Below, one piece after another: positions 5,356-26,240 of a stretch of 64,000 nucleotides of DNA (position 1 is the first letter of the stretch; each line of letters begins with the position of its first letter). Made by a program: the position numbers and the translations under genes. The notes beneath the pieces were generated by a model. That model made no database searches. It was not told the origin of the DNA and saw only the letters and a list, made by a program, of their open reading frames with translations. The DNA comes from Pseudomonas flavescens (GTDB taxonomy: Bacteria > Pseudomonadota > Gammaproteobacteria > Pseudomonadales > Pseudomonadaceae), in NCBI RefSeq assembly GCF_013408425.1, contig NZ_JACBYV010000001.1, positions 2,790,001-2,854,000 on the forward strand. Direction: 5' to 3'.

Positions 5356-5748
5356 CGGCGGGTAACTCCGGGCAAGGCCACATTGCACCGCATCGCGGCT
5401 GCCGAGATGACGCTGATAGATTTGTGTGGCGGCGATGAGGGAAGGTATCGAGGGAAGGATTGGCAAGAAAAGGCTGGAATCATGCTGCATTTACTCTGCG
5501 CTGGCGGCCCGACCTGCGCGAAACTGAACCTGCCTTGCCGCGATTGCGGTGGCACCCGTGAAATAACCTACACCAAGCTCTGCAGCGTGGAAACCCTGGG
5601 GCGTAGCGCTCGCAAGCGAACGCAGCGCCCTGTACCCCGCTGAAGATGTCACCAAGCGCCGAACCGCTGCCAGGCAAAACCCCTGACCCTCAACGAGAAC
5701 GCCGCCGCCCTTTACGGTAACGGCGGCGCACGGTCTGGCATTGCGCAA
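5356..5748. other. Intergenic region between recombinase and purC
   Basis: 393 bp. Several short open frames overlap here (for example 5383-5643 on the plus strand), none with recognisable similarity or a good ribosome binding site. A GC-rich inverted repeat near 5700-5730, just after the purC stop, could help end transcription but has no clear U-run. Nothing else recognised. Confidence 0.4.
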
Positions 5749-24055: not shown

Positions 24056-24363
24056 GCCTTTCATCCACCAGTGGCATCGGCTGCCACACTGTCTATTTAT
24101 CCAGGCGCGAGTATAGGGTCGTCGATAGCTTGCCGTCATCCACAGGATCCACAGCCCGTCGGACATAAATGCCTGAAAGCACCGTTTTGCCAGTAAAGGC
24201 CAGGCTCGCTCGCGGGGAGCGATCGCCGATTCGTATGCCGGTGATCGCGCCCGCACCGCGGACCCAAGGCCTCAGCACCCCGCGCGTGCCACTCGCAGCC
24301 GGCTTGCCGTTGACCATTTGCCACGCTACCCTTCCCACGTCGCTGCAAAATCAGCGAACGGGT
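24056..24363. other. Intergenic region upstream of ruvC and of the C4-like RNA
   Basis: 308 bp. No convincing protein gene. It must hold the ruvC promoter (leftward) and probably that of the rightward RNA module: TTGACC at 24310-24315 is a possible -35, but no good -10 at standard spacing was found. Confidence 0.4.
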
Positions 24364-24386
24364 TTGGCGACCCGATCAGATATAGG
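24364..24386 (+). promoter_or_regulatory. First copy of the C4-RNA target boxes
   Basis: Contains TTGGCGA (24364-24370) and GATATAGG (24379-24386). Both are exact reverse complements of unpaired segments of the C4-like RNA at 24498-24504 and 24484-24491. The same two boxes recur before the leader ORF (24532-24569), as in the paired a/b boxes of the P1 immI system. Confidence 0.6.
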
Positions 24387-24449
24387 CGCACAGGCGCCGT
24401 CTACCCCATTGCAGGCGCTTTTTTGTGCCCGCAATGCCGTGTTATGGCG

Positions 24450-24524
24450 GCCGTGCGCGGGAGACCTTCGGGTCTGCCGGGTTCCTATATCCCCGGTTCG
24501 CCAACCCGCGTACGGCTGCCACCC
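24450..24524 (+). ncRNA. C4-type antisense RNA
   Basis: Matches, from memory, the conserved C4 antisense RNA element of P1/P7/P4-like phages (gggagaccttcgggtctgcc core). It folds into a closing stem (24453-24460 with 24506-24513, one G-U), a UUCG tetraloop hairpin (24462-24475) and a second hairpin (24477-24481 with 24492-24496) whose loop TTCCTATATC is antisense to GATATAGG. The linker TCGCCAA (24498-24504) is antisense to TTGGCGA. C4 RNA of P1 blocks translation of a short ORF coupled to ant. Exact ends are estimated. Confidence 0.8.
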
Positions 24525-24531
24525 AAATCGT

Positions 24532-24569
24532 TTGGCGACGGTTCGTGGCAGCTCTTCAGCAGATATAGG
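24532..24569 (+). promoter_or_regulatory. Second copy of target boxes, overlapping the leader ORF ribosome binding site
   Basis: TTGGCGA (24532-24538) and GATATAGG (24562-24569) are complementary to the C4-like RNA. GATATAGG runs into AGGAG, the Shine-Dalgarno of the ATG at 24581, so RNA pairing would hide it. Between the boxes, GTGGCAGC (24545-24552) pairs with GCTGCCAC (24515-24522), giving an alternative hairpin. Confidence 0.6.
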
Positions 24570-24580
24570 AGCACCAGCCC

Positions 24581-24652
24581 ATGACGTCGTATACCCTTGA
24601 TCCGTCCGTACGCAGCCTTTCCAGTGATGAAGAAAGGAGGCTGGCACCATGA
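24581..24652 (+). CDS. 23-codon leader ORF, translationally coupled (icd-like)
   Basis: ATG 24581 is 9 bp after AGGAG and reads MTSYTLDPSVRSLSSDEERR then LAP and TGA. Its stop overlaps the next ATG (ATGA), and the next gene's AAAGGAGG site lies inside it. This architecture, with the ribosome binding site covered by C4 antisense complementarity, matches the icd leader of phage P1, which must be translated for ant to be expressed. The peptide itself has no recognised function. Confidence 0.6.
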   Translation: MTSYTLDPSVRSLSSDEERRLAP

Positions 24653-24924
24653 CTGACCTCATGCCGCTGTCCAGCAATCCAGGCAGCGCACCCGTGCTGC
24701 TGATCGATACCAGCCGCTCCTATATCGACCTGCAGGAAAGCGCGGAGCAACGCCTCAGCGCGGTGCGCGGCCTGTTGCAGAGCCTGGCGCTGATGACCAT
24801 CACACTGGCAGACGCCAATGACCTGCGCTATCTGAGCGAAGCCGCGTACCTGCTTACCGAGGATGCCTACGACCTGGCCAAAGCCGCTCACCATGCCGCG
24901 CTGCGCGAAGCGAGTCAGCGCTAG
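24649..24924 (+). CDS. Small helical protein of unknown function under the C4-like module
   Basis: 91 aa, mostly predicted helical (…ESAEQRLSAVRGLLQSLALMTI… and …YLSEAAYLLTEDAYDLAKAAH…). It loosely resembles small Pseudomonas DUF3077/DUF6124-like proteins, a tentative link. No catalytic motif, signal peptide or membrane segment. Ribosome binding site AAAGGAGG precedes ATG 24649. It is coupled to the 23-codon leader and lies just before the REPIN array. It is not part of a recognisable prophage here. Confidence 0.7.
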   Translation: MTDLMPLSSNPGSAPVLLIDTSRSYIDLQESAEQRLSAVRGLLQSLALMTITLADANDLRYLSEAAYLLTEDAYDLAKAAHHAALREASQR

Positions 24925-24984
24925 GCATCAGGCACCATCGACCCTGCCCACCTCGGGCTGCGCCTTTCACCTGGAACCTTCGCG

Positions 24985-26226
24985 TCGCGGCCGAGATCGA
25001 TTCGCTGGCAAGCCAGCTCCTACAATTCTGAGCCTTTGCGCGGCAGATGGATTGTGCAGACTTCGTCGTAGGAGCCCGCTTGCGGGCGATTGCGGTTACG
25101 ACATTCACGCAGATGTATCGCAGCCGAAATCGATTCGCTGGCAAGCCAGCGCCTACAATTTTTGGCTTTGCGCGGCAGATGGATTGGGTAGACACCTGTC
25201 GTAGGAGCCCGCTTGCGGGCGATCGCGGTTACGACATTCACGCAGGTATGTAGCGGCCGAGATCAATTCGCTGGCAAGCCAGCTCCTACAATTCTGAGCC
25301 TTTGCGCGGCAGATGGATTGGGTAGACACCTGTCGTAGGAGCCCGCTTGCGGGCGATTGCGGTTACGACATTCACGCAGGTGTGTCACGGCCGAGATCGA
25401 TTCGCTGGCAAGCCAGCTCCTACAATTCTGAGCCTTTGCGCGGCAGGTGGATTGTGCAGACTTCGTCGTAGGAGCCCGCTTGCGGGCGATTGCGGTTACG
25501 ACATTCACGCAGGTATGTAGCGGCCGAGATCGATTCGCTGGCAAGCCAGCTCCTACAATTTTGGGCCTTTGCGCGGCAGATGGATTGGGTAGACACCTGT
25601 CGTAGGAGCCCGCTTGCGGGCGATTGCGGTTACGACATTCACGCAAGTATGTAGCGGCCGAGATCGATTCGCTGGCAAGCCAGCTCCTACAATTTTGGGC
25701 CTCTGCGCGGCAGATGGATTGGGTAGACACCTGTCGTAGGAGCCCGCTTGCGGGCGATCGCGGTTACGACATTCACGCAGGTGTGTCACGGCCGAGATCG
25801 ATTCGCTGGCAAGCCAGCTCCTACAATTTTGGGCCTCTGCGCGGCAGATGGATTGGGTAGACACCTGTCGTAGGAGCCCGCTTGCGGGTGATTGCGGTTA
25901 CGACATTCACGCAAGTATGTAGCGGCCGAGATCGATTCGCTGGCAAGCCAGCTCCTACAATTCTGAGCCTTTGCGTGGCAGATAGGTTGGGTAGACACCT
26001 GTCGTAGGAGCCCGCTTGCGGGCGATTGCGGTTACGACATTCACGCAGGTGTGTAGCGGCCGAGATCGATTCGCTGGCAAGCCAGCTCCTACAATTTTGG
26101 GCCTCTGCGCGGCAGATGGATTGGGTAGACACCTGTCGTAGGAGCCCGCTTGCGGGCGATTGCGGTTACGACATTCAAGCAGGTGTGTCGCGGCCGAGAT
26201 CGATTCATTGGCAAGTCGACTCCTGC
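24985..26226. repeat. Tandem REPIN array, nine full units plus one degenerate
   Basis: A 133-134 bp unit repeats with CGCTGGCAAGC at 25003, 25136, 25269, 25403, 25536, 25670, 25804, 25938 and 26072, and a decayed copy at 26206. Each unit has one REP in each orientation (GCTGGCAAGCCAGCTCCTAC and GTAGGAGCCCGCTTGCGGGC), i.e. an inverted REP pair able to form a long hairpin. Copies differ by a few bases. Open frames seen here are artefacts of the repeat. Confidence 0.93.
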
Positions 26227-26240
26227 AGCGTGGTAGGCAG

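Follow-up and report, generated by a model that had tools for sequence, protein, structure and literature searches.

Analysis of a 64,000-nucleotide stretch of Pseudomonas flavescens DNA (the window) revealed a C4 antisense RNA switch that was probably captured from a phage or satellite, has multiplied, and now appears to serve a chromosomal gene in cis; we put the probability of this reading at about 0.83. C4 has been familiar from phage immunity, and a member of the family would be expected to be processed to about 77 nt and to act as antisense. Judging from the sequences compared here, C4 looks like a genus-wide, multicopy chromosomal regulator with self-specific codes.

The original prediction placed a C4-like RNA at 24450-24524 and proposed a search with the C4 model. 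An Rfam scan of the window returned RF01695 (C4) at 24440-24526 over the full model (1-87), with 91.2 bits against a cut-off of 45 (E 7.6e-17); this and all other features of the module lie on the plus strand. Taken alone, the RNA folds at -52.8 kcal/mol (z -6.0), and none of 200 shuffles folded as well. Its helices also covary across the 17 copies in the genome: 92.8% of cells are paired (a value reached by none of 500 shuffles), 12 pairs are altered on both sides, and two-sided changes occur in 42 cells versus a shuffled mean of 15.5. The three-helix fold is thus supported both by folding and by base-pair changes. The loop (CCTATATC, 24484-24491) and the linker (TCGCCAA, 24498-24504) are complementary to boxes on both sides of the RNA, and both box pairs sit where they had been predicted (24364-24386 and 24532-24569). 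Upstream, the linker complement a1 (TTGGCGA, 24364-24370) lies within a hairpin loop, and the loop complement b1 (GATATAGG, 24379-24386) ends in a GG that also forms the first two bases of a further hairpin, H1. Downstream, a2 (TTGGCGA, 24532-24538) again complements the linker, and b2 (24562-24571, with GATATAGG at 24562-24569) overlaps the GGAG that serves a leader ORF of 23 codons as its Shine-Dalgarno sequence; GATATAGGAG spans this Shine-Dalgarno sequence. By every sequence feature examined, then, the window RNA is a C4 RNA.

The leader ORF (24581-24652) holds AAAGGAGG, the Shine-Dalgarno sequence of the next gene, and its stop overlaps the start of a 91-aa ORF (24649-24924) as ATGA, the ATG lying inside the leader stop, just as originally described. 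With the leader Shine-Dalgarno sequence under b2 and the next gene overlapping, the P1-type anatomy is present, and coupling between the two ORFs is predicted from it. The 91-aa protein has no match in Pfam, PHROGs or NCBIfam at E 1, and hence none to DUF3077 or DUF6124 in Pfam (0 families at E 1); neither DUF has a hit anywhere in the P. flavescens genome at E 0.001. Searched as a family, it gives no significant match in the same three collections, with one chance-like hit at E 0.0085. At E 0.01, tblastn likewise finds no match among 50,697 phage records, and searches of a genome-contig collection with the protein and with alignment A5 returned no relative. The P. flavescens genome, on the other hand, encodes ten members of the family including that of the window, to which the others are 65 to 88% identical, and profile matches occur in 139 of 298 Pseudomonas genomes, window genome included. 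C4 lies just upstream of the relatives in 23 of 29 fetched loci outside the window genome (nhmmer). By these profile searches, the gene is a member of a third, unnamed family beside DUF6124 and DUF3077. As to its role, our guess is that of a small helper in phage/satellite or stress biology.

Also in line with the original prediction, no prophage and no antirepressor accompanies the module, which has ruvA and ruvC as neighbours to one side and yebC and aspS to the other. No C4 was found near ruvC in the 12 relatives examined, and yebC lies 19 to 259 bp from ruvC in the 11 in which it was seen; in P. flavescens, this gap measures 2.2 kb and holds the C4 module together with nine 134-bp repeats. 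The latter form a tandem array (24984-26227, between the 91-aa gene and yebC) in which each unit carries GTAGGAGC...GCTCCTAC, sequences that we take to be REP-like. Motifs of this type are also numerous (20 within 3 kb) at a second C4 locus of the genome, L011; each of the remaining 15 loci has 0 or 1. Elsewhere in the window, an nhaA-I RNA lies at 5499-5557 on the minus strand (46.9 bits; cut-off 37).

The P. flavescens genome contains 17 C4 RNAs that score over the cut-off. In ten (group A), C4 is followed by a leader of 23 to 25 codons and a member of the 91-aa family (91 to 106 aa), and in five (group B) by a 28-codon leader and a different protein of 89 to 92 aa. The remaining two (L016 and L017) have no leader ORF, C4 being followed directly by Bro-N proteins of 159 to 160 aa (PF02498, antirepressor type). 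The suggestion of a domesticated switch that serves a small family of Pseudomonas proteins fits, with present use by the host as the inferred part, but it was an understatement because the same genome has nine more such modules and seven other C4 modules, with differing codes. At two loci (L014 and L015), the C4-linked 89-aa gene is followed by a 115-aa ORF; that of L014 matches QslA, of the LasR anti-activator family (PF18226, E 2.7e-40), so a gene of quorum-sensing type may sit in a C4-controlled operon.

C4 scores over the cut-off in 277 of 298 Pseudomonas genomes, window genome included, and eight closed Pseudomonas genomes hold 42, 47, 26, 24, 35, 32, 42 and 4 matches (252 in total, at E 0.001); in three of these eight, 118 of 121 matches are over the cut-off. 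Outside Pseudomonas, C4 occurs in 27 of 369 genomes of the class, with 1 to 3 copies in 22 of the 27 among the matches listed, and it was found in none of 14 control genomes. The highest number outside the genus among the matches listed, at least 10 (out of 11 candidates scored), belongs to a genome of another family of the same class (G540).

For comparisons between loci, we used 172 loci from 34 genomes: the 17 from P. flavescens, the best 130 of the 252 above (so that the set leans to high-scoring copies), and one from each of 25 further genomes; ten loci that repeat P. flavescens loci (L018 to L027) were excluded. A simple rule assigned a downstream ORF to 168 of the 172, and in most loci these ORFs are related. 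The largest cluster comprises 100 of the 168 proteins, of which 72 match DUF6124 and 37 DUF3077, some matching both (E 0.01). The linkage also holds when approached from the genes: in the three genomes, 98 of 109 DUF6124/DUF3077 hits are preceded on their own strand by a C4 no more than 900 nt away. This count (97 DUF6124 and 12 DUF3077 hits, including a few fragments) omits three DUF3077 rows that repeat DUF6124, one row for the second fragment of a gene, and two sub-cut-off DUF6124 rows without a listed C4 nearby, with which the linkage becomes 98 of 111. Conversely, 96 of the 121 C4 RNAs in these genomes have a DUF6124 or DUF3077 gene. In two genomes, C4-DUF6124 modules stand in tandem, about 0.85 kb apart (3628832-3630617 in G005 and 2361642-2362583 in G062), which points to a possible route of multiplication.

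The targets of C4 lie outside the C4 model, yet complements of the linker recur in each locus's own flanking windows, which argues that the box matches are not due to chance. A linker complement of at least 7 nt is present in the locus's own upstream window in 165 of 172 loci, in its own downstream window in 165, and in both in 159; in the windows of other loci, the rates are 6.8% (upstream) and 7.0% (downstream). For the loop, a complement of at least 7 nt occurs downstream in 129 of 172 loci versus 3.6% for other loci (43 fall below 7 nt) and upstream in 88 versus 2.6%, the b1 match thus being weaker than that of b2. The codes themselves are diverse, with 38 linkers, 131 loops and 143 linker/loop pairs among the 172 loci, and all 17 P. 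flavescens copies differ in their linker/loop pair. Within the RNA, variation is greatest in the loop, which is close to random (up to 2.0 bits of entropy in its central columns), while the stems are conserved (mean 0.56). Each copy's code therefore appears to fit mainly its own targets. In nine genomes (seven of them partly covered), only 3 of 2510 ordered non-self pairs match both downstream boxes over at least 7 nt. This figure is not significantly below permutation in any of the nine, and selected avoidance of cross-talk was rejected as an explanation. We also considered whether the 3' arm of C4 might instead pair with downstream GTGGCAGC. Such pairing reaches at least 7 nt in 55 of 172 loci against 1.8% of shuffled windows; since it does so in 21% of the windows of other loci as well, it reflects a conserved sequence without clear covariation and was left out of the model.

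Some loci allow the change of a code to be followed at one site. At least 200 bp of one or both flanks is shared by 112 pairs of loci, many of which are not true orthologues and which overlap one another; both flanks are shared in 16 pairs, and the loop differs in 13 of these. In L057 and L107, which occupy one chromosomal site in two species, the loop and b2 have changed together, while the flanks (90 to 92%), the scaffold and the linker are kept; the changed loop in L057 has no b1 match (4 nt). In L101 and L074, the flanks and genes are highly identical, but the sequence between them, from b1 to b2, is for the most part different. This pattern is as compatible with replacement as with point change; the L074 loop matches b2 over only 5 nt.

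Upstream of C4, a sigma-70-like promoter, TTGCCG-17 nt-TACCCT, lies at 24304-24332. The original prediction had included neither this promoter nor the possible terminator/antiterminator pair described below, nor the genome's other 16 C4 copies. A generic promoter scan of the stretch did not report the promoter. Of the 165 C4 loci in which a1 was matched, 147 show the pattern TTG...TANNNT, where shuffles lead one to expect 2.9, and in 92 of the 147 the -10 box ends 31 nt 5' of a1. The c4-a1b1 element (RF03163; 24326-24378; 58.6 bits, cut-off 46.7) comprises a hairpin followed by a second one that loops out a1, and arms of 4 or more pairs flank a1 in 158 of the 165 loci. Because the 5' end of the match covers the -10 box, that end of the Rfam match seems to be promoter DNA. 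The minimum-energy fold then contains H1 (24385-24398), GGCGC-ACAG-GCGCC, a candidate antiterminator. Its 3' arm can pair alternatively with GGCGC followed by six T (24414-24424), giving H2 (24394-24424), GCGCC-15 nt-GGCGC-TTTTTT, a candidate terminator that is mutually exclusive with H1. H2 has a 5-bp stem with a 15-nt loop, and a generic scan restricted to terminator loops of 3 to 8 nt found none. The stretch from a1b1 to the terminator folds little better than shuffles (z -0.98 for the whole leader, and -0.27).

When conservation was scored with one fixed motif, H1/H2 and the T-run were kept in 14 of 14 satellite-type leader loci and in 9 of the 10 group A loci. They were rare in DUF6124/DUF3077 loci (16 of 100) and in other 91-aa-like loci (5 of 27), and were found in none of 8 Bro-N loci, 5 group B loci or 8 other loci. 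With H1/H2 so poorly kept, attenuation cannot be general, and we read the pair as a putative inherited attenuator which many host copies have lost. The isrK model (RF01394) gives 45.2 bits at 24339-24424, below its cut-off of 50, and the window leader is accordingly not assigned to isrK; among eight phage/viral loci scanned, four reach that cut-off (L364, 60.2; L250, 59.6; L393, 53.8; L184, 50.8), and in several such loci the isrK and c4-a1b1 models overlap. In the available part of a start-site study of Burkholderia cenocepacia, an 81-nt isrK and a 90-nt C4 are adjacent among the candidate small RNAs (PMC4603805), and C4 and isrK are also listed side by side in the available part of a report on Xylella (PMC12189769), which would fit one conserved leader-C4 unit.

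The DNA of the switch is matched by 33 phage records at 60 to 80% identity, the best being phiAH14b (79% over 250 bp). In this satellite, which carries an integrase, AlpA and a primase, the C4 module heads the replication genes: C4 is followed by a 52-aa leader and then by a series of small genes that leads up to the primase. The host leaders look like shortened versions of the phiAH14b leader, often with an M..NPS start and with GG(A/G)(Q/K) or GGQ near the end, a likeness that is weakest in the window's own leader. The leader end has presumably been kept because it encodes the Shine-Dalgarno sequence of the next gene. Group A has seven distinct loops, and six of them recur among 171 viral C4 loci, more than the 9.2% predicted by base composition. 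As the viral loci share loops among themselves at a rate of 68%, group A is in line with them and seems to have been drawn recently from the pool present in phages. Sharing with viral loci is lower for group B (0 of 5) and for the DUF6124/DUF3077 loops (6 of 33 loops of 12 nt). In some IMG/VR contigs (among them L217, L237 and L382), DUF3077-like genes come after C4; either such genes occur in phages as well, or the collection contains host DNA.

We propose that one transcript from the sigma-70-like promoter would span a1b1, C4 and the gene. The three-helix C4 RNA would pair through its loop and linker with b2 and a2 and mask the leader Shine-Dalgarno sequence, and the 91-aa gene, coupled through ATGA, would stay off while the leader is blocked; some signal would presumably relieve C4. 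In copies that keep H1/H2, pairing of C4 with b1 would take the GG of the putative antiterminator H1, and the freed GCGCC could form the terminator H2, so that transcription would stop before C4. C4 would thereby limit its own supply and, with a separate linker/loop code for each copy, many copies could run side by side.

Several other explanations deserve consideration. The loci might be the remnants of dead C4-bearing prophages without any current role, as would suit a phage and prophage RNA whose DNA is matched in 33 phage records and which, in most carriers outside the genus, is present in 1 to 3 copies among the matches listed. Against such decay stand the up to 47 copies per genome, a linker code with matches both upstream and downstream in 159 of 172 loci, the recurrent promoter pattern, the related downstream ORFs, and the absence of phage genes adjoining the window module, and we regard it as very unlikely. 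A selfish origin, in which C4 would have spread together with the small gene as a mobile or addiction cassette and would resemble an antitoxin RNA, has more to recommend it. It would account for the many dispersed copies with some tandem arrays, for the presence of one protein family ten times over in a single genome, and for a module between yebC and ruvC that is seen only in P. flavescens among the relatives examined. However, neither of the module's two ORFs is a mobility gene, no toxin family is matched, and Unstab_antitox touches only 2 of 42 proteins, not significantly (best E 0.08); we consider this explanation unlikely. If instead the copies regulated each other's genes as one trans network, one would expect shared codes, and there are some: four P. 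flavescens loci (L006, L010, L011 and L012) have the loop CCTAGAGT in common, six have the linker TCGCCAA, and L008 fits the boxes of L003 at no less than 7 nt. With full cross-matches confined to 3 of the 2510 pairs in the nine genomes, seven of them partly covered, and no linker/loop pair repeated among the 17, though, we find a single network highly doubtful. Finally, CTCCTATATC, at 24717-24726 within the 91-aa ORF, complements GATATAGGAG exactly (10 of 10) and could be taken for a second antisense or a self-sequestering arm. Of 168 loci, only that of the window has even a 9-nt copy, and the others resemble the non-self distribution; we rejected this candidate, which probably arose by chance in conserved SYI codons and is hardly credible as a regulatory element.

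A more ambitious idea is that the chromosomal C4 RNAs form a repertoire for RNA immunity which, besides controlling their own genes, would silence in trans the replication or antirepressor operons of incoming phages and satellites with the same code. If this were true, a genome's dozens of codes would resist dozens of C4-controlled elements, and the switching of codes at fixed sites would reflect an arms race. The recurrence of group A loops among viral loci speaks for it, as does the fact that L008 and L012 have both linker and loop in common with the phage/satellite-type loci L250 and L339. However, given the rate at which viral loci share loops among themselves, common descent suffices, and a full code is shared by 3 of the 10 group A loci, a number that does not exceed permutation (mean 2.2). 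Sharing by the DUF6124/DUF3077 loci (6 of 100) does exceed permutation (mean 0.9), but in four of the six the viral partners listed mostly carry DUF3077-like genes. These partners thus appear to be loci of one kind with them rather than targets, and the viral set is evidently not purely phage; viral codes as targets of the DUF6124/DUF3077 C4 RNAs were rejected on this account for those four. Furthermore, the window's target pair occurs in 46 viral stretches versus 27 for a shuffled control with no C4 in either set, which marks these occurrences as background. We consider the repertoire quite unlikely, and hold to capture, multiplication and present use in cis as the preferred reading.

In the c4-icd-ant operon of P1 and P7, C4, two box pairs, a leader whose Shine-Dalgarno sequence is the target, and a coupled downstream gene occur together. 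The original prediction likened the module to this plan, and the identity of C4 and the overlap of the leader with the next ORF bear it out. The window module shares with P1/P7 the C4 RNA, the two box pairs, the leader with a targeted Shine-Dalgarno sequence, and the adjacent gene. It differs in lacking a prophage and Ant, in its 23-codon leader, and in being one of 17 copies with different codes; with phage and antirepressor missing, it is not a P1-type immunity operon. C4, Icd and Ant are named in one regulatory circuit in the available part of another report (PMC8201110). The IsrK/orf45/anrP region of Gifsy-1, as described in the available part of that account, is similar in having a leader RNA with a terminator and read-through and a short ORF coupled to an antirepressor-like gene (PMC4825925). 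There, however, the short IsrK activates anrP, while the layout here predicts repression by C4, and the gene product differs. The same source names the CI RNA of satellite P4, an antisense RNA between two complementary sequences (seqA and seqC) (PMC4825925). The layout of the window module is similar to that of CI as well as to that of P1 c4; C4, in contrast, constitutes its own RNA family with a three-helix fold. The RF01695 and RF03163 entries, to both of which the locus belongs by score, cover Proteobacteria and phages (PMC2864571), and the available part of that text makes no mention of multicopy coded sets or of DUF6124/DUF3077. C4 is likewise presented as a family found in phages in the portion available of a further paper (PMC4666395). 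Among literature titles and abstracts, a scope that takes in few subscription papers in full, we found neither multicopy coded chromosomal C4 RNAs nor a tie to DUF6124 or DUF3077.

If our reading is correct, it would provide a regulatory handle on DUF6124 and DUF3077, two Pseudomonas families of unknown function, and on the third, unnamed family to which the 91-aa protein appears to belong. It would also reveal a naturally occurring set of antisense pairs that are largely insulated from one another, with 17 in the P. flavescens genome and up to 47 matches elsewhere. Such a set would make it possible to test how duplicated antisense RNAs come to differ in specificity, and whether satellites under C4 control meet with interference from the host copies.
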